In this document: piece by piece, positions 726-14,675 of the stretch | How positions within the stretch are numbered: position 1 is the stretch's first letter | Layout: every line of letters starts with the position of its first letter | Assembly (NCBI GenBank): GCA_018110855.1 | Contig: JAGBFZ010000041.1 | Coordinates: forward strand, 1 to 14,798 | Length of the DNA stretch: 14,798 nucleotides | Reading direction: 5' to 3' | Source: Oscillospiraceae bacterium | Lineage (GTDB): Bacteria > Bacillota > Clostridia > Oscillospirales > Ruminococcaceae | Notes under the pieces: generated by a model | The model's input: only the letters and a program-made list of their open reading frames with translations | Database searches by the model: none | What the model was told of the DNA's origin: nothing | Program-made: the position numbers and the translations under genes

Positions 726-1775
726 TTACTCAAACAATGAGGTTTGTTTGTCGGGTGCGGTTATACCAAGATGCTTATATGCAAGAGCTGTGGCACACCG
801 TCCCCTTGGTGTACGGGAAATAAAACCCAGCTGCATAAGATACGGCTCGCACACGTCCTCAAGAGTGACCGATTCCTCGCCGATAGCCGAAGCTAAGGTC
901 TCAAGTCCCGCAGGACCTCCGCCGTAGCCTGTGATAAGCATATTTAAGAAACGCTTGTCAAGGCTGTCAAGACCCAAGGAATCTATCTCCATGCGGTCAA
1001 GAGCAATGGCGGCTATCTCGCCGTTTATCCTGCCCTCACCGATAACGTCCGCAAAATCCCTTACTCGTTTCAAGAGCCTGTTTGCGATACGGGGAGTTCC
1101 CCGTGAACGCTTGGCGATCTCCGCAGCGCCGTCAATATCGCAGGCAATGCCTAAAATGACCGCACTTCGCATGATAATATCCGAAAGCTGCTCATGAGAA
1201 TAAAGCTCAAGTCTCTGAATAATTCCGAATCTGTCTCTCAAGGGAGCAGTAAGCTGTCCCGCACGGGTGGTAGCGCCCACAAGAGTAAACCTGTGCAGCT
1301 CCACCTTCAAAGAACGGGCAGAGGGACCCTTTCCCACAATTATATCAAGAGCGAAATCCTCCATTGCAGGATAAAGTATCTCCTCAATAGAGCGTGAAAG
1401 CCTGTGTATCTCGTCTATAAACAGCACGTCACCCTCGGAAAGATTGGTAAGCAAAGCCGCCAGATCGCCGGGCTTTTCAATAGCAGGACCCGAAGTAGTC
1501 CTGATATTCACTCCCATTTCATGGGCAATTATAGTGGACAGGGTGGTTTTTCCAAGCCCCGGAGGACCGTAAAGAAGAACATGGTCGAGAGATTCATTTC
1601 TCTGCTTTGCCGCCTTTATGTAAACGGCTAAATTCTCCTTGACCTTGTCCTGACCGATATATTCGTTCAGAGTCTTAGGTCTGAGGGAATAATCTATATC
1701 ATCATCAGATGGCATGGATTCGGGCGAAACCATGCGTTCCTCAAAATCAAGCTCCATATCGCTTTGTTCCAGCAA
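726..1775 (-). CDS. ruvB: Holliday junction branch migration DNA helicase RuvB
   Basis: RuvB is the hexameric AAA+ motor that, loaded by RuvA, drives branch migration of Holliday junctions in recombination and repair. The 349-residue protein has the usual length and all hallmarks: Walker [10 protein letters not shown] (70-78), Walker B with DEIH (121-124), sensor 1 GATTR (167-171), the arginine-finger region LRDRFG (179-184), sensor 2 GTPRIANR (226-233), and a C-terminal winged-helix domain from about 260 ending in [10 protein letters not shown] (818-type motif of RuvB, here about residues 318-327). The start is a TTG, chosen because AAAGGAG lies 10 bases upstream (1786-1792); the first ATG is six codons further in. 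It lies 24 bp after the phosphatase-like gene, unlike the common ruvA-ruvB adjacency, and is presumably expressed from the ruvC promoter. Identification is secure. Confidence 0.98.
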
Positions 1776-1799: not shown

Positions 1800-3005
1800 T
1801 CAGTTAAAGGATCTCGGGGCAATGTTCTCAGTAAGGGGACGTTTCCAGCCCGATGTCTGCTTTGTGGTGATAACACAGAGAGGAAGGCACATTTCATCAG
1901 ATGTAATACCTCCCGAGCCTGCCTTGTCGGGGGAACGGTGCTTCTGATTCAATGCCCTGAACGTCAGCGACTTGTCACCCATGGCAAAGGCGCAGTAATC
2001 CCCGATAAAATCATATATTTTCTTGTTTGTCTTTCCGCAGCCGAACAGCTCTCTTTTCAGAATATCACTGCGGCTCATAAGATGGAAATCCTCTGAAAGG
2101 TCTCTTGCAAAAAGCCTTTCAAAATCGGAGCGGCAGTCAGCCTTAACATAAAAATTCACAGCCCGTCCGCCGAATACGGGAGGCATAAGCAGGCAGTCGC
2201 AAAGCTCATATTTCAGATTGAGCATTATTTCCGAAGAAATATCCTTCATTCCATGAGTGGATGTCACGATTATCAGCGTATCCTTCATGGATTTTGAAAG
2301 CCCGTTCACAGTGTCATTGATATCCCTGATAATGCTCTTTGTCTCCTCGCTTTCGCAGCCGTATCTGATTGCGGATTCCTGAGGAGCATTCCATTGAACA
2401 TAGGTGAATGTGTTCTGATCGGTCTCAGCGATCTTTTTAATAAGCTCAAACATACGCTTAGGATTATCAGCGACCTTGTGATAGCTTTTGTTTTCTGCTA
2501 TTTTCACACCGGGGAGAGCTATGGAAAAGGGCTGAACAGAGCCTAATATGGAGCCTGCTATCTCACCGAAAATATTTTCATAGGGCAGGATAAAATCCGC
2601 AGCATTCGCCACCGAAACAGGCTGATTTGAATAGGGATCCAGATTGGAGGAAAGCTCAACCGTCCGGCAGAATTCCTTGAAGAACATAGTCTGCCCGAGC
2701 CTGCCGTGCTCGTTGGGATAAAGTCCCGAAACAGAGCTTACCTCCGCCGCCGCAGGATATGACGGACAAACAGATGTAAGCTGCTCCGTCATTTTTTTCA
2801 GCAGAATATCCGACGGTTTCAGGGATGCTCTCAGCATATTCTCCCCGACCCCGCAAAGAACTATCAGAACCACGTTCTTATACATTCTGTTCAGCTCATC
2901 ATCTAGCTTTTCAATGGACGGAACATTGGTGGGAATACGATAATACTTTTTGATTGATGAGATCACATTGACCGAGCATTTCTTGTAATTTGGAAAAACA
3001 AGCAC
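1800..3005 (-). CDS. Alkaline phosphatase superfamily protein with degenerate active site (probable pseudoenzyme)
   Basis: The 401-residue protein aligns by motif with the type I phosphodiesterase/nucleotide pyrophosphatase-like branch of the alkaline phosphatase superfamily. VVLIVLCGVG (45-54) matches VLLILDGxG, the segment ending SGLYPNEHGRLG (93-104) matches the SGLxPxEHGWLG region, TYVQWNAPQ (201-209) matches FTYVYWNDPD, STHGM (249-253) matches ADHG, and GGITSDEM (365-372) matches the C-terminal HxGLTxxEM. The residues for metal binding and catalysis are largely replaced: Asp to Cys51, the nucleophile Thr to Pro84 (Tyr83-Pro84-Ala85), Asp to Gln209, His to Ile213, Asp to Thr250, and the last His to Ser364. 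Only His251 remains. No signal peptide is visible, so it is cytosolic. It starts at GTG with AAGGAC 8 bases upstream (3014-3019), overlapping the ruvA stop. It sits between ruvA and ruvB with gaps of 12 and 24 bp. Fold assignment is fairly sure; function is unknown, and hydrolase activity is unlikely. Confidence 0.82.
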   Translation of the reverse strand: MLVFPNYKKCSVNVISSIKKYYRIPTNVPSIEKLDDELNRMYKNVVLIVLCGVGENMLRASLKPSDILLKKMTEQLTSVCPSYPAAAEVSSVSGLYPNEHGRLGQTMFFKEFCRTVELSSNLDPYSNQPVSVANAADFILPYENIFGEIAGSILGSVQPFSIALPGVKIAENKSYHKVADNPKRMFELIKKIAETDQNTFTYVQWNAPQESAIRYGCESEETKSIIRDINDTVNGLSKSMKDTLIIVTSTHGMKDISSEIMLNLKYELCDCLLMPPVFGGRAVNFYVKADCRSDFERLFARDLSEDFHLMSRSDILKRELFGCGKTNKKIYDFIGDYCAFAMGDKSLTFRALNQKHRSPDKAGSGGITSDEMCLPLCVITTKQTSGWKRPLTENIAPRSFN

Positions 3006-3017
3006 AAAAACCAGTCC

Positions 3018-3629
3018 TTACTTAAATTTTGCAAGTCCTTTGAGAGCGAGCCTGATAAGCTCCTCCGGTGAGAGAGACGGGTCAAGCTTTGAAACAGCGT
3101 CCTCCGCCTCTGCCTGAGTATAGCCGAGAACAAGGAGCGCATCCACAGCCTCCGAAGCTGCTCCGCCTGAAATAAAGGCTCTGTTGACCTTTCCTGCGGG
3201 AGCAGCCTGAGTGAAGCTCATCTGATCCTTTGATATCTTGTCCTTCAGCTCAAGAACGATCCTCTGAGCCATTTTGGGACCAATTCCCTTTACCTTTGTA
3301 AGCTGCTTGAAATCGCCTGTGGCAACTGCAAGAGCAAAGTTGTTGGGATCAATATCCGACAGAATGGAAAGAGCCGCCTTGGGACCCACTCCCGAAACGC
3401 CCAGCAGCATTTTAAAGCAGCCAAGCTCCTTTTTATCATAAAATCCGAAAAGCTCTGTTCCGTCCTCCCTGACCTGCAGATGAGTATAGAGCATTGCTTC
3501 ATCGCCTATATTTCCAAGAGCAGCAAGAGTGTTATATGTAGTGCGGCAGCCGTAGCCCACGCCCGCACATTCAATGACTGCAAGTCCCGCTTCCTTAATA
3601 ATAAGCGTACCTCTGACGCTGTATATCAT
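3018..3629 (-). CDS. ruvA: Holliday junction branch migration protein RuvA
   Basis: RuvA binds the four-way junction as a tetramer and recruits RuvB. The 203-residue protein has the three expected parts. An N-terminal OB fold (1-62) carries the acidic pin Glu55-Asp56 in REDGTELFGF. The middle domain holds two helix-hairpin-helix motifs, GVSGVGPKAA (77-86) and VKGIGPKMAQ (113-122). After a flexible linker (about 133-154) comes the RuvB-binding domain III (about 155-200). ATG is preceded by AAAGGA. The gene begins 20 bp after the ruvC stop, and its TAA overlaps the ribosome binding site of the next gene, suggesting translational coupling. No key residue is missing. Identification is secure. Confidence 0.98.
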   Translation of the reverse strand: MIYSVRGTLIIKEAGLAVIECAGVGYGCRTTYNTLAALGNIGDEAMLYTHLQVREDGTELFGFYDKKELGCFKMLLGVSGVGPKAALSILSDIDPNNFALAVATGDFKQLTKVKGIGPKMAQRIVLELKDKISKDQMSFTQAAPAGKVNRAFISGGAASEAVDALLVLGYTQAEAEDAVSKLDPSLSPEELIRLALKGLAKFK

Positions 3630-3649: not shown

Positions 3650-4135
3650 TTATTCAAACTTCACTGCCGAGGAGCTGTGTCCGTGACAGATGGCAAGAGC
3701 CAGCGCATCGGCGGTATCATCGGGCTTAGGCACCTTAGCCAACCCCAGAATACTTCTTGTCATCTCCATGACCTGCTTTTTTTCCGCTCTGCCGTAGCCC
3801 ACCACAGACTGCTTCACCTGCAGCGGAGTATATTCATAAATGGGTATGCCGCTTTCCGCCGCTGCAAGGACTATAACACCCCTTGCCTGAGCAACATCAA
3901 TACCCGTTTTCTGGTTAGTGTTGAAGAAGAGCTTTTCAATGCTCATAGCGTCGGGCTTGTACTTGCCGATAACGGTCTTCATGTCGTTGTAAATATCTAA
4001 AAGCCTCAGCGAAAAATCCGCTCCCGCCTCGGTGGTTATAGCTCCATATCCCTTCGGCTTGAAGCTGTAGCCATCATAATCCAATATTCCGTAACCCACA
4101 ATGGCATAACCGGGGTCTATTCCCAGAATTATCAA
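3650..4135 (-). CDS. ruvC: Crossover junction endodeoxyribonuclease RuvC
   Basis: RuvC is the dimeric, metal-dependent resolvase that nicks Holliday junctions, working with RuvAB. The 161-residue protein has the RNase H-like fold and the full acidic tetrad: Asp7 in LGIDPG, Glu67 in SIEKLFF, and Asp140 plus Asp143 in the DDTADALA helix. QARGV (83-87) and the basic VVGYGRAEKKQV segment (111-122) are also typical. The start is TTG, supported by GAGGAG 9 bases upstream (4145-4150) and by the protein then beginning exactly where RuvC proteins begin (M-I-I-L-G-I-D-P-G). It is the first gene of the operon, behind a strong promoter at 4183-4211. Identification is secure. Confidence 0.98.
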   Translation of the reverse strand: MIILGIDPGYAIVGYGILDYDGYSFKPKGYGAITTEAGADFSLRLLDIYNDMKTVIGKYKPDAMSIEKLFFNTNQKTGIDVAQARGVIVLAAAESGIPIYEYTPLQVKQSVVGYGRAEKKQVMEMTRSILGLAKVPKPDDTADALALAICHGHSSSAVKFE

Positions 4136-8972: not shown

Positions 8973-11042
8973 ATGAAAAAGTATAAACAGATAATATCCT
9001 GCGCCGCAGCTATTGCCGCCGCCTGTACATTCACGGGCAAGGCATTTGCAGACAGTGAAATGTTTGTTGAAATTATTCCCCCAACAGGCGGCGCCAGCAT
9101 TTTTGTGGATACGGACAAAGGGCATAAAAAGATCAGCCCCTACATTTACGGCATAAACGATATCGGAGATCTGAATAGTATATCCCCCACTGTCATCAAA
9201 CAGAGAAGCACTTCTATCTCAACCTATAACTGGGAAACAAACTATTCCAATTCCGGTGCGCAGGGAATGAACGTCAACGATATCTCTCTTGTGGACGATT
9301 ACCCCTCCTCCAAATGGGGATCACCTGCTCTGTATGCGGAAAAGCTGACCACAAGGAGCAGAATGTATAATATCCCCGTTAAGCTGCTGACGCTGCCGAT
9401 GATGGGCTATGCAGCCGCCGATTCAATGGGTATCGTGTCAAACGATGAAGCGTCAAAGGAGACCCGGTGGAAGAAGGTTTTATTTAATAAAAATGATACA
9501 TACCTCAATCATCCCGATATATATGATGATACGGTATATATTGACGAATATGTGAGTTATCTTGTCAATCGTTTCGGAACCGCCGCCGAGGGTGGGATAA
9601 ACGGTTATTTCCTTGACAGCGAGCCTGACAAATGGAATGAGAATTTCCCTGTATTAAATCAGCCTCCCCTGACATTTGCGGAGCTTGCGGATCGTTCTGC
9701 AAATCTGGCAAATGCTGTAAAGGCTATCGACAGCAATGCTTTTGTTTTTGGTCCCTCATTAAGCGGACTTCAGGGCTGTATTGATCTCGGAAGCCCTTCG
9801 GATACAGGACTTTCGCCTGCCGAAAATGAGTATTCATGGTTTATCGACTATTATCTGAGCGAAATGCGGGCACGAAGCGCCCAGACAGGCTACCGTCTCC
9901 TTGATGTGCTTGACGTTCACTATTATACAGAAGCACAGACGCCTCTTGGTGAGGACATCAGAACAAGCACTGACCAGATCGCTGACGCTCTGAGAATGCA
10001 GTCGGTCAGAACACTTTGGGATCCCGATTATACTGAGACCTCTGTCACCGTAATGATGAATAAGCAGTTCACCCCGGTTATCCCCACACTTCAGGCATCC
10101 ATACGAATGAATTATCCCAAAACAAGACTGTCCTTTTCCGAATATGATTTCGGCGGCGGTGAAAATATGAGCGGTGCTATTGCAGAAATAGACGCTTTGG
10201 GTGTATTTGCCGAGCAGGAGGTATATCTTGCCTGCCTGTCTCCCCTTTCGGAAAAATATCCATTCCAGAAGGCGGCTCTGAATCTCTATACAGACTATGA
10301 CGGCAAAGGCAGCAGCTTCGGAGATACTCTTGTTTTCTCAGAAAACCATAACGATGAATTAAGCTCTGTGTATGCCGCTGTGGATTCGGATGAACCCGAT
10401 AAGCTGAAGATCATTCTCACCAACAAGCAGATGGTTACAGATAAAGATCTTGAGATCGTGATAAGCTCAGAAAAATACAGCTACGAGCTTGAAAACGCAT
10501 TTGCCATAAATCCTGAAAATGCCTTAATTGACGAGTGCGATTTGGATAAATTCACACTTGAGGATAATACAGTGTCATTCACTGCTGACCCTATGGGAGC
10601 ATATCTCCTTGTTTTAAACGGAACATCCGTCAAAGAAACAGAAATATCCGACAGTATATGGACAACGGACAACTCCGAAAGCGTAACGGGTATTTCAGAT
10701 GAGCCTGATGCATCCGCAGAAAATACAGCTGCTTCCGACACCGAATCTCTTATTGTTATTTCGGACATGACCGAATCCGAAGCATCTGTAATTTACCCCT
10801 CAGACGAAACTGTACCCGACCTTACCGAGTCTCAGACAGTATCTTCAGAAACCACAGACGTTACTGTCTCAGAAACCGAGCTGACCGAAAATACAAGCAT
10901 TTCCGAAGAAACGTCAGAAAGTAAGTTTACCGAGGACGAAAAATCTCCGTCTGTTCCACTGCCTCTAAAAATCATTATCAGCATGATGTGCCTCACTGTG
11001 ATAGGCGGCGTATTCTATATTCTGTTTTTTGACAGAAAATAA
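8973..11042 (+). CDS. Secreted, membrane-anchored glycoside hydrolase family 44 protein
   Basis: GH44 enzymes are retaining endo-beta-glucanases/xyloglucanases. In order, the 689 residues show a signal peptide (1-26, cleavage near AFA-DS), a (beta/alpha)8 catalytic domain (about 40-440), a C-terminal beta domain (about 445-550), a Ser/Thr/Glu/Asp stalk (about 555-660) and a membrane anchor (664-685) ending DRK. Recognition rests on HKKISPYIYGIN (51-62), STYNWETNYSN (83-93), MMGYAAAD (143-150), LDSEPDKW (214-221), DVLDVHYYTEA (311-321) and FSEYDFGGG (388-396). The acid/base is Glu217 and the nucleophile Glu390, 173 residues apart as in characterised GH44 enzymes. Oddities: the usual Asn before the acid/base is Ser216, and the WGGN motif before YNW is Gln77-Arg-Ser-Thr. 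There is no dockerin, carbohydrate-binding module or LPXTG signal. It is a single-gene unit with its own promoter and terminator. The family is sure; activity on cellulose is not. Confidence 0.9.
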   Translation: MKKYKQIISCAAAIAAACTFTGKAFADSEMFVEIIPPTGGASIFVDTDKGHKKISPYIYGINDIGDLNSISPTVIKQRSTSISTYNWETNYSNSGAQGMNVNDISLVDDYPSSKWGSPALYAEKLTTRSRMYNIPVKLLTLPMMGYAAADSMGIVSNDEASKETRWKKVLFNKNDTYLNHPDIYDDTVYIDEYVSYLVNRFGTAAEGGINGYFLDSEPDKWNENFPVLNQPPLTFAELADRSANLANAVKAIDSNAFVFGPSLSGLQGCIDLGSPSDTGLSPAENEYSWFIDYYLSEMRARSAQTGYRLLDVLDVHYYTEAQTPLGEDIRTSTDQIADALRMQSVRTLWDPDYTETSVTVMMNKQFTPVIPTLQASIRMNYPKTRLSFSEYDFGGGENMSGAIAEIDALGVFAEQEVYLACLSPLSEKYPFQKAALNLYTDYDGKGSSFGDTLVFSENHNDELSSVYAAVDSDEPDKLKIILTNKQMVTDKDLEIVISSEKYSYELENAFAINPENALIDECDLDKFTLEDNTVSFTADPMGAYLLVLNGTSVKETEISDSIWTTDNSESVTGISDEPDASAENTAASDTESLIVISDMTESEASVIYPSDETVPDLTESQTVSSETTDVTVSETELTENTSISEETSESKFTEDEKSPSVPLPLKIIISMMCLTVIGGVFYILFFDRK
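10635..10952 (+). other. Low-complexity Ser/Thr/acidic stalk of the GH44 protein
   Basis: Residues about 555-660 are mostly Ser, Thr, Glu and Asp, with recurring SET, TES and TEN triplets but no strict period. It precedes the C-terminal membrane segment and resembles a cell-wall-spanning stalk that holds the catalytic domain away from the membrane. It may be glycosylated. Confidence 0.7.
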
Positions 11043-11633: not shown

Positions 11634-13097
11634 TTACCATGTGGTAACAATATTCTCACCGTTCAGAAGATGCTCTGTATTTTCAATAAGCCTGTTTACA
11701 TAAGAAGTCCTGCATCTGAAGCTGGTCCTGCCGTTAAGGCGGATAATGGATTTTCTGTCTGTTGAATTTATAAACTCAAGCTTATCCACACCGTTTTCGT
11801 GAATTATCGTAATAGTGATATCCGCAGGGTCGGTACATTCCTCAAGATACATCTCCTCGGCAGGCGCACGGAGAATATACTGATAATAATCCTTGAAGAT
11901 GTCCTCGGAAACATCCTGAATGCCCTCACATTCCACATTGAAAGCCTCGCTTCCGCCGCTCAGCTCAAATGCTGCGCTTTTGTCAGCAGTCTCGATCTCA
12001 AGAGTGTTGATGGTGTAAATATAGGTGCTTGTTATCATGGACATGGTAATATCCAGAGGCATTACAGTTGCCCACGGCAGTATGCTGTAATCGAACATAT
12101 AAATTATGTCAATACCGTCTGCCATGCAGTATCTTCCCTTGGGAATACCATTTTCATCGGTGTACTCATTTCCGACAAGCAGATAGAAATCTCCGCCTGT
12201 AATATCATAGCTCACCTCGCAGAATGGATCTGCCAGACCAAACTGAGCAATGATCTCATCTGTGGGAGCAGCAACCGCTATCTCGGTAGCAGTGAGATTG
12301 AATACACTGTATATCAGATCGTATGAAGTATCGGGATTCAGATCGAGACAAACAGGGCTTGTCATAACATGGCTGGAGGAATTTCCGTAAACCGCATCTT
12401 CATCATCCTGACGGACATCGTATTCAAGAACGATATCGTAATCTATATCCTCTCGGGAGATGGTAATGCTTGTTATTTTTGTGTAGTCGGTGGTGTCATT
12501 TTCATCCTCCGCCTGCTTTGCTGTGTAAACCGTCTTGGCAAGGAAATAAAATCTGTCATTAAGGAACACTTCCACATCGGAGGTATCTACCGCATAAACG
12601 GTATTTTCACCCTTGAATGAAGCATAGGTAAGTCCGTCAGAGGGAGAATCGTTACCGATAAGCAGCTCCTTCACATCAGAACCTCCGCCGAAGGTTACTG
12701 TAACCTCAGCGCGGGGCTTGTCAAGTCCGTAAACCGACAGATCCTCCGCATTATCCGAAGCGACCTGCTGAGAAGTGAGAGTGGCTGCGCTTGAGCATAT
12801 GCTGTTCACAGCCACAGCACTGTGAGGAAGACCGATAAAATCCTTAACAAACCATGAGCTGTCATTATATTTAACAATGTCATATTCACCCGACTCGTTT
12901 GACACATGGATATTGTCTATCTGAGCGGGATCCTTGTCATAAAGGAGTCTGGAAAGAGTATTTGAAGCAGCAGTAGTCTCCTCGACCGCCTCCGAAGGCT
13001 CCTCCGCATCTCCCATAACATTCAGCAGGATAACAGCGGCTGCAAGCACGACAAGCGTCGCAGCACCGATTATCAAAAGCTTAACATTGGACTTCAT
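11634..13097 (-). CDS. DUF4340 domain-containing protein, partner of the Gld-like ABC system
   Basis: This is a membrane-anchored extracytoplasmic protein. An N-terminal membrane helix (7-28) is followed by an acidic linker (29-45) and a long outside domain. DUF4340-type units appear twice. One is YGLDKPRAEVTVTFG to about 180, with LLIGND (145-150) and TVYAVD (166-171). The second is FGLADPFCEVSYDITGG to about 345, with LLVGNEY (306-312) and IIYMFDYSILPW (331-342). The biochemical role is unknown; in Clostridia and many other bacteria the family is encoded after GldG-like proteins of ABC-2 exporters. Here its ATG directly abuts the TAA of the GldG gene (TAAATG), and its AAGGAG (13108-13113) lies inside that gene, 10 bases from the start, so the two are translationally coupled. 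The length of 487 is normal for the family. The domain call is fairly sure. Confidence 0.85.
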   Translation of the reverse strand: MKSNVKLLIIGAATLVVLAAAVILLNVMGDAEEPSEAVEETTAASNTLSRLLYDKDPAQIDNIHVSNESGEYDIVKYNDSSWFVKDFIGLPHSAVAVNSICSSAATLTSQQVASDNAEDLSVYGLDKPRAEVTVTFGGGSDVKELLIGNDSPSDGLTYASFKGENTVYAVDTSDVEVFLNDRFYFLAKTVYTAKQAEDENDTTDYTKITSITISREDIDYDIVLEYDVRQDDEDAVYGNSSSHVMTSPVCLDLNPDTSYDLIYSVFNLTATEIAVAAPTDEIIAQFGLADPFCEVSYDITGGDFYLLVGNEYTDENGIPKGRYCMADGIDIIYMFDYSILPWATVMPLDITMSMITSTYIYTINTLEIETADKSAAFELSGGSEAFNVECEGIQDVSEDIFKDYYQYILRAPAEEMYLEECTDPADITITIIHENGVDKLEFINSTDRKSIIRLNGRTSFRCRTSYVNRLIENTEHLLNGENIVTTW

Positions 13098-14666
13098 TTA
13101 CTTGCTTCTCCTTCTGATGAAAACCACTGTTCCAATAATGAGAACAGCAACAGGAATAATTACAATGAACAGGGTAAAATATCTGTTAGCAGTTCCGCTG
13201 TCAATATCGAAGCTGTCTGCGCCAAGATCCTTTGCAACGATAGAAATACCGCTGTTCTTGCCCGCCATTGTGTTCACAACTGAAATGAAATAATCACCGT
13301 TGTTGAAATAGGTGGTGGAAGTAAAGCTCTCATCAAGAGTCTCGGAGGAACCGATGACAAGAACATTGCTGAACACCATTTGGTTTTCCTCATCGAAAAT
13401 ATACTTTCTTCCGAGAGCCATAGTGGTCTGAACGCCGTAATTTATACCTGCTGTGTCGCCGTTCTTGATTGCCTGCTGAACCTCGTCTGTCATAATAAAT
13501 GCAGTATCCTTGGTCTGAAGCAGAGGAACAGTGCTTCTTGTATCCTTATTTTCAAAAAGCAGCGTAAGAGGTCTTGACTGGAAATCAATAACAGGAAGCG
13601 AGGAATTGGCAAGGTTTGTGGAATAATCATTCTCAGTGATATAATCACGGATAACATAAAGATTCTGACTCTGAAGATTGTTCATGTCGCTGTCCGCAAC
13701 AATACCGTCCTCCACACGGATACCCCATTCCTCAAGGAATGTACCCATGTTGCTCATAGTCTTCTGGCTGTAATCGGCAAAGTAGATGAGACTTCTGCCC
13801 AGCTTTCCGTCATTGTCAAGAAAAGCATAAAGCATATCAATAACAGTGGAATCATAGTCATTGAGAGGAGCGTTGATAACAACTATATCCGTATCCTCAG
13901 GGATAGTCTCAGCAAGAGGATTTATCTCGCTGACTTCATAGCCGTTGGAAGCAAGGAGATTATATACGTTATCATAGGAAGTACCCGAAGTCTCGCTCTT
14001 GAATACCACTGCCTTGATAGGATCGGGATCGGTAACATACATGATAGCGGAGGTGATCTCCTGCTCAGCCTTTGAAGACACAGGAACTTCTGCATATGAG
14101 AAGCTGCTGTAATCAAACTGAGACTCGGTATTGTAAAGGTCCTGAATACCGAAAACCTTGATACGGCCGTTAGCCTCGTTTTCCACGATAATGCTGTACT
14201 GATTGATCTCGCCCTTATAGGACTCCTTGTAACGCTCGGCATAGGTGGGGTCTGCTATCATATCCACAAAGGTAAGATTTACGAGATCGCTGTAAATGGA
14301 ATACTTTTTCAGCACCTCATATGCCTGCTTGTAGTAAATATATGTGGCAGTCTGGAAGGTAAGTTCATCGGAGAGACAAACGATATTCACAGGCTGATTC
14401 AGAGTGTTAAGATAATCTATTGTCTGCTGAGATATCTCGAAATTTCCGTTTGTGGTAAGGTCAATTGACATATTCACCTTATTTGAAGCCATGTTAACAA
14501 TAACATTCACAAGCACAACGATCGCCACAACGATAATTGTGATAGCAGCTGCAATGGAGCCGTATTTCAGCTTTCTTTTGTTAAAGCTGCCCTTTTTCTT
14601 CTCAACAGCACCGTCTGAAGAAATCTCGGCAGAATTTATCTCAGCTTCGTTTTTCTTTTTAGCCAT
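13098..14666 (-). CDS. GldG-family ABC transporter auxiliary protein
   Basis: The 522-residue protein is the GldG-like (ABC_transp_aux) component of an ABC-2 type export system. It has a basic cytosolic N-terminus (KKK at 3-5 and 23-25, RK at 31-32), a membrane helix (about 38-60), a large outside domain beginning with a SIDLTTNGNFEISQQT-like motif (67-82), and a second membrane helix near the C-terminus (about 496-516) followed by RRRSK. The motif after the first helix matches the DLTxxxxxxLS region of GldG proteins. A TTG three codons upstream was rejected as the start because it touches the ribosome binding site, whereas ATG at 14666 has AAAGGA 9 bases upstream. It starts 28 bp after the permease stop. 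GldG with GldA and GldF supports gliding in Bacteroidetes; in Firmicutes without gliding the substrate is unknown. Confidence 0.88.
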   Translation of the reverse strand: MAKKKNEAEINSAEISSDGAVEKKKGSFNKRKLKYGSIAAAITIIVVAIVVLVNVIVNMASNKVNMSIDLTTNGNFEISQQTIDYLNTLNQPVNIVCLSDELTFQTATYIYYKQAYEVLKKYSIYSDLVNLTFVDMIADPTYAERYKESYKGEINQYSIIVENEANGRIKVFGIQDLYNTESQFDYSSFSYAEVPVSSKAEQEITSAIMYVTDPDPIKAVVFKSETSGTSYDNVYNLLASNGYEVSEINPLAETIPEDTDIVVINAPLNDYDSTVIDMLYAFLDNDGKLGRSLIYFADYSQKTMSNMGTFLEEWGIRVEDGIVADSDMNNLQSQNLYVIRDYITENDYSTNLANSSLPVIDFQSRPLTLLFENKDTRSTVPLLQTKDTAFIMTDEVQQAIKNGDTAGINYGVQTTMALGRKYIFDEENQMVFSNVLVIGSSETLDESFTSTTYFNNGDYFISVVNTMAGKNSGISIVAKDLGADSFDIDSGTANRYFTLFIVIIPVAVLIIGTVVFIRRRSK

Positions 14667-14675
14667 TTTATTCAA

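Follow-up and report, generated by a model that had tools for sequence, protein, structure and literature searches.

The ruv operon of a gut bacterium from the Oscillospiraceae carries an additional gene, here referred to as X, which is flanked by the two DNA-repair genes ruvA and ruvB and encodes a putative pseudo-phosphodiesterase of the alkaline-phosphatase superfamily. Sequence comparison provides good support for X being a conserved pseudoenzyme, while other members of its lineage that occupy the same slot look catalytically intact. Most likely (with a probability of roughly 60%), X works without catalysis, as a binding or scaffold protein, and descended from a working ruv-linked phosphodiesterase. 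Its cutting site has been lost, which is also true of several relatives in this slot, yet selection conserves the protein, and this suggests that it has taken on another task for which no chemistry is required.

The analysed stretch of 14,798 nucleotides (the window) belongs to a genome of 2.6 Mb in 455 contigs; the name Huintestinicola is attached to two homologues. The initial annotation, made from the sequence alone, had placed X between ruvA and ruvB and had described an intact frame of 401 codons with a proper start. Both statements hold, as the genes run in the order ruvC-ruvA-X-ruvB on one strand (Table 1) and X starts with a GTG at 3005 that is preceded 9 nt upstream by AAGGA, with its stop ending at 1800. 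A search for LexA/SOS-type boxes with up to one mismatch gave 5 matches versus 4.7 expected and thus no excess. No published account of a ruvA-X-ruvB arrangement was found in titles and abstract openings, a search that covered few of the subscription journals.

Table 1. Genes of the ruv run in the window.
Feature	Position	Strand	Description	Basis
X	1800..3005	-	NPP-like (PF01663) pseudoenzyme of the alkaline-phosphatase superfamily (putative), 401 aa, GTG start	ORF list, Pfam, alignment, structure model
ruvA	3018..3629	-	directly upstream of X; X starts 12 nt past the ruvA stop	ORF and Pfam
ruvB	726..1775	-	directly downstream of X; 24 nt separate the end of X from the ruvB start	ORF and Pfam
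ruvC	3650..4135	-	first gene of the run	ORF and Pfam

An alkaline-phosphatase fold had been proposed for X, and this is supported by a Pfam match to PF01663 (48.7 bits, cut-off 23), a family matched by all 46 members of homologue set A2 (best E 1.9e-23), as well as by a structure model that predicts an NPP fold. The residues named in the initial annotation are all found at their numbers (C51, Y83-P84-A85, Q209, I213, T250, H251 and S364). In the alignment with intact relatives, whose catalytic string is DTDHDHH, X reads CPQITHS, i.e. one of the seven two-metal/nucleophile ligands is kept and six are replaced. In a profile alignment to the solved ENPP4, the nucleophile Thr of ENPP4 is matched by the second T of the PSTT motif typical of the family, and its Asp, Asp, His, Asp and His by positions 51, 209, 213, 250 and 251 of X, respectively, while position 364 lies outside this alignment and was assigned from the intact relatives. 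For NPP3, D168, T206, D326, H330, D373, H374 and H483 are listed as the seven ligands (PMC6052110). Since all 27 homologues without ruv linkage, which were not selected for catalytic residues, keep all seven ligands and an NPP fold is modelled, the loss in X is not a matter of chance. The earlier statement that only His251 survives is true of X itself, yet Tyr occupies this column in 6 of the 23 members of its clade. A shift of the ligands to nearby positions is not visible in the alignment. Among the Asp, Glu, His and Cys columns that are fixed in at least 22 of the 23 clade members, E55, D137, D196, H356, D370 and E393 differ from the intact relatives. X very probably lacks two-metal hydrolysis.

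Compared with known systems, X departs from the NPPs (ENPP4/5/6, Xac NPP; PF01663) by the six replaced residues and also at Q105. The latter occupies the column of an ENPP4 Asn, presumably the phosphate-binding one (N227 in NPP3); 21 of the 22 intact relatives with ruv linkage have Trp at this position. Phosphonoacetate hydrolase PhnA (1ei6, 3szy) shows 16-17% identity to X, in which its catalytic residues are gone, and the NCBIfam PhnA model scores the intact relative P0026 at 19 versus a cut-off of 407.55. Neither NCBIfam nor PADLOC returned a match for X. Kinship to PglZ (BREX) was considered and rejected: Pfam PglZ is matched by 14 (best E 4.2e-7) and Metalloenzyme by 19 of the 46 A2 members, compared to 46 for PF01663. 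X itself matches neither, and the hits among its relatives probably reflect a shared superfamily. A stand-alone paralogue from the window's own genome (G000:C440, L151:2189-3283) belongs to the same subfamily as X (31% identity), but is intact, with DTDHDHH kept, and its locus contains no ruv gene. X resembles pseudoenzymes in general (reviewed in PMC10211241) in that the fold is kept, the catalytic motif lost and the sequence conserved, and differs in that the loss recurs within one operon-bound orthologous lineage. Binding of nucleic acids, as had been suggested initially, is not supported by the calculated charge (median pI 6.5, net charge -1). X is probably cytosolic, because no obvious signal peptide was seen by eye.

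Relatives of X were sought on genome contigs with two peptide patterns, one of which contains position 251 ([HY]GM), so that this column is partly selected among the 71 loci returned. RuvA and/or RuvB are encoded beside X in all of the 34 closest loci (L050-L083) and in none of the 37 loci L084-L120 (flanks of up to 4 kb). At E 1e-30, 35 of 396 genomes of the family contain a match, and in at least 25 of these 35, from seven genera, a ruv gene lies within 1.5 kb. The slot between ruvA and ruvB is occupied by X orthologues in at least seven genera. X and its ruv neighbours are encoded on the same strand with median gaps of 44 nt (ruvA to X) and 19 nt (X to ruvB), and gaps below 100 nt were found in 35 of 39 and 37 of 41 cases, respectively; the underlying table of 43 rows lists some contigs twice (e.g. 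L030/L076), and its 912-nt gap in L083 is false owing to a miscalled start. Orthologue frames are open except for truncations at contig ends, with the stops in three g146 matches falling at the end of a 383-aa protein. Ten genomes of the genus have no ruv-linked X match. In seven of them (G001, G003, G008, G013, G014, G016 and G017) ruvA and ruvB share a contig and are directly adjacent, 16-66 nt apart, which implies that X is dispensable; in G010, G015 and G019, ruvA was not found. Of the 10 X-carrying genomes of the genus, 5 also have an intact stand-alone paralogue (the window's genome and 4 of 9 others), which lends little weight to the idea that X was freed by another intact copy. The other 23 genomes checked, among them G164 without verified ruv context, have no full-length paralogue and one fragment (G337). 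One protein labelled as Prevotella sp. MAG (P0051) sits inside the ruv-linked Oscillospiraceae clade, perhaps due to a misbinned contig.

The catalytic site is preserved unevenly across these loci. All seven residues are kept at 17 of 39 ruv-linked loci versus 27 of 27 non-ruv homologues, which together represent 66 of 79 deduplicated loci (the other 13 fall below 23% identity or 330 aa). A careful tree of 70 rows, calculated without the seven catalytic columns, unites the ruv-linked set in one clade (support 99/97), although many of its 64 rows stem from a protein collection without known context. This tree needs at least nine changes between intact and altered, or four if loss of two or more residues is coded, and a quick tree of 90 rows gives minima of eight and four. 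The outgroup is intact, so these changes are losses, with a few single-residue regains possible; hence, pseudoenzymes appear, by sequence, to have arisen repeatedly in the ruv-linked lineage. Multi-residue loss with verified context is found in the g146 group (DGARTST and variants), in a clade that unites g142 and L034 with the window's genus, and in L036 (DTSLDHH; L033 from the same genus is intact). Changes of D51 alone occur in L030 as well as in L059, L063 and L064. P0052 and P0025/P0032, which are protein records without genomic context, are altered too; the latter pair joins the big clade in the 70-row tree (90/92) and stands apart from it in another tree.

The selection acting on X was estimated by NG86, which is unreliable at the dS values near or above 1 found for many pairs and renders the exact ratios rough. 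In the window's clade, dN/dS amounts to 0.046-0.079 for X (8 pairs) and to 0.007-0.070 for RuvA in the same pairs. Values of 0.057-0.073 were obtained for X of g146 (3 pairs), 0.121 for L035-L037, 0.070 and 0.086 for the pairs with D51 changes only, 0.028-0.066 for intact ruv-linked pairs (7 pairs) and 0.124-0.174 for the stand-alone paralogues (3 pairs). Purifying selection and open orthologue frames thus agree with the initial view of X as a pseudoenzyme rather than a decaying gene. Within the clade (23 members), the mean entropy of the seven columns is 1.74 bits, compared to 0.50 bits for the set of 140 columns, these seven among them, that 22 intact relatives conserve, and none of 100000 random draws from the other 133 columns reached 1.74 bits. 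These 22 relatives were chosen as intact, and their invariance at the seven columns is therefore given by construction; what is informative is the entropy within the clade itself, together with the 27 of 27 homologues that had not been selected. None of the former ligand columns is near fixation except, partly, H251 and P84, and C51 is present in 12 of 23 members. In contrast to this variability, the clade shows no variation at 100 columns, and 19 of these fall into the blocks 97-124 and 155-160. All 23 members share R102 and H356, whereas Trp and Pro, respectively, occupy these columns in every one of the 22 intact relatives and of the 6 sister-clade proteins. A conserved non-catalytic function of X is highly probable.

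Covariation of X with the Ruv proteins was analysed in 31 of 39 examined loci, namely those holding all four genes. Raw distance correlations are 0.95 for X-RuvA, 0.88 for X-RuvB and 0.82 for X-RuvC; with the other two genes held constant, the partial correlations are 0.77, 0.37 and -0.06, and become 0.45, 0.48 and 0.08 when g146 is left out. The Ruv pairs give 0.05 (0.34 without g146) for RuvA-RuvB, 0.30 (0.33) for RuvA-RuvC and 0.42 (0.19) for RuvB-RuvC. Because RuvA-RuvB, a known complex, scores low and RuvB-RuvC reaches 0.42, such covariation cannot be relied on to indicate contact; the partial Mantel test is a liberal one, and neighbouring genes share their history. In g146 (L042, L043, L044 and L049), X has the longest stem branch of the 70-row tree (2.05), and RuvA is less similar than RuvB predicts (z -1.9 to -2.9 versus 45 genomes without ruv-linked X match), with identities to the window's proteins of 47-48% for RuvA and 74-77% for RuvB. 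These identities come from tblastn and the background from a separate genome search, so that deviations of a few percent between the two are possible, and the divergence concerns one lineage. The link to junction processing, as put forward in the initial annotation, thus remains only suggestive: the slot kept in seven genera and the fact that X covaries with RuvA and RuvB and not with RuvC favour it, while the low RuvA-RuvB value and the entry of unrelated genes into the region do not.

Conceivably, X could be an unneeded enzyme in slow decay whose frame is kept open by polarity on ruvB. The drift of the ligand columns without a fixed replacement, the several and partly single-residue losses, the seven genus-mates without X and the intact paralogue in half of the X-carrying genus genomes would be compatible with this, and mild relaxation would also fit the dN/dS of X, which slightly exceeds that of intact ruv-linked relatives. 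Yet, this ratio (0.05-0.08) is close to that of RuvA, and relaxed selection would hardly leave 100 columns invariant over 23 diverged members, including R102 and H356, so that such decay is improbable. The fixation of the latter two residues, together with the preserved fold and the conserved block around 97-124, could alternatively hint at a changed enzyme that hydrolyses its substrate through a different mechanism involving relocated residues, e.g. H356. This is quite improbable, however, given the scarcity of near-fixed ligand columns and the absence of H356 and R102 from sister clades in which the site has likewise been lost.

A more serious contender is a conserved non-catalytic job unrelated to recombination, with the ruv operon serving for expression only. 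Its odds, somewhat short of even, overlap with those of the preferred reading, since both share the pseudoenzyme step and differ in the partner. Other genes enter the same region, i.e. a DinB-superfamily gene that replaces X in the slot of G028 (L133:2126-2806), a serpin gene between X and ruvB (L071:5247-6506) and a 280-aa ORF without Pfam match (L060). In addition, the neighbourhoods of two stand-alone paralogues revealed, by eye, no recombination link or functional clue. The retention of the slot across at least seven genera and the stronger covariation with RuvA and RuvB than with RuvC argue against a mere passenger.

According to the preferred reading of X as a non-catalytic binding or scaffold protein, X would neither bind two metals nor hydrolyse phosphodiesters, but act by binding, either of a ligand held in the old cleft or as a protein scaffold. 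With less confidence, its partner may be RuvA or the RuvAB branch-migration complex. This is the best single guess at what X binds, and a role of X as partner in RuvAB is, based on the present comparisons, a realistic if less than even prospect. The ancestral enzyme, also with less confidence, may already have had the same binding role, in which case catalysis could have been given up repeatedly without any loss of binding. The resulting scenario of a lineage-specific RuvAB partner that arose from a co-transcribed phosphodiesterase, with binding first and catalysis dropped independently in several genera to give an intact-to-nearly-dead series in one slot, is more tentative. If true, a widespread bacterial recombination machine would have an unrecognised lineage-specific partner, and the locus would offer a graded series (intact, one, two and nearly all ligands lost) at constant synteny, in which it is directly testable what stays when catalysis drops. 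Even if the link to Ruv fails, the label "alkaline phosphatase family protein" on some relatives misleads with regard to activity.

Elsewhere in the window, a glycoside hydrolase family 44 protein (8973-11042, Pfam) shows, on visual inspection, a start that resembles a signal sequence, a linker rich in Ser, Thr and Glu and a hydrophobic segment at the C-terminus. At 11634-14675, a DUF4340 protein adjoins an ABC_transp_aux protein, a pair reminiscent of gliding-type ABC systems.
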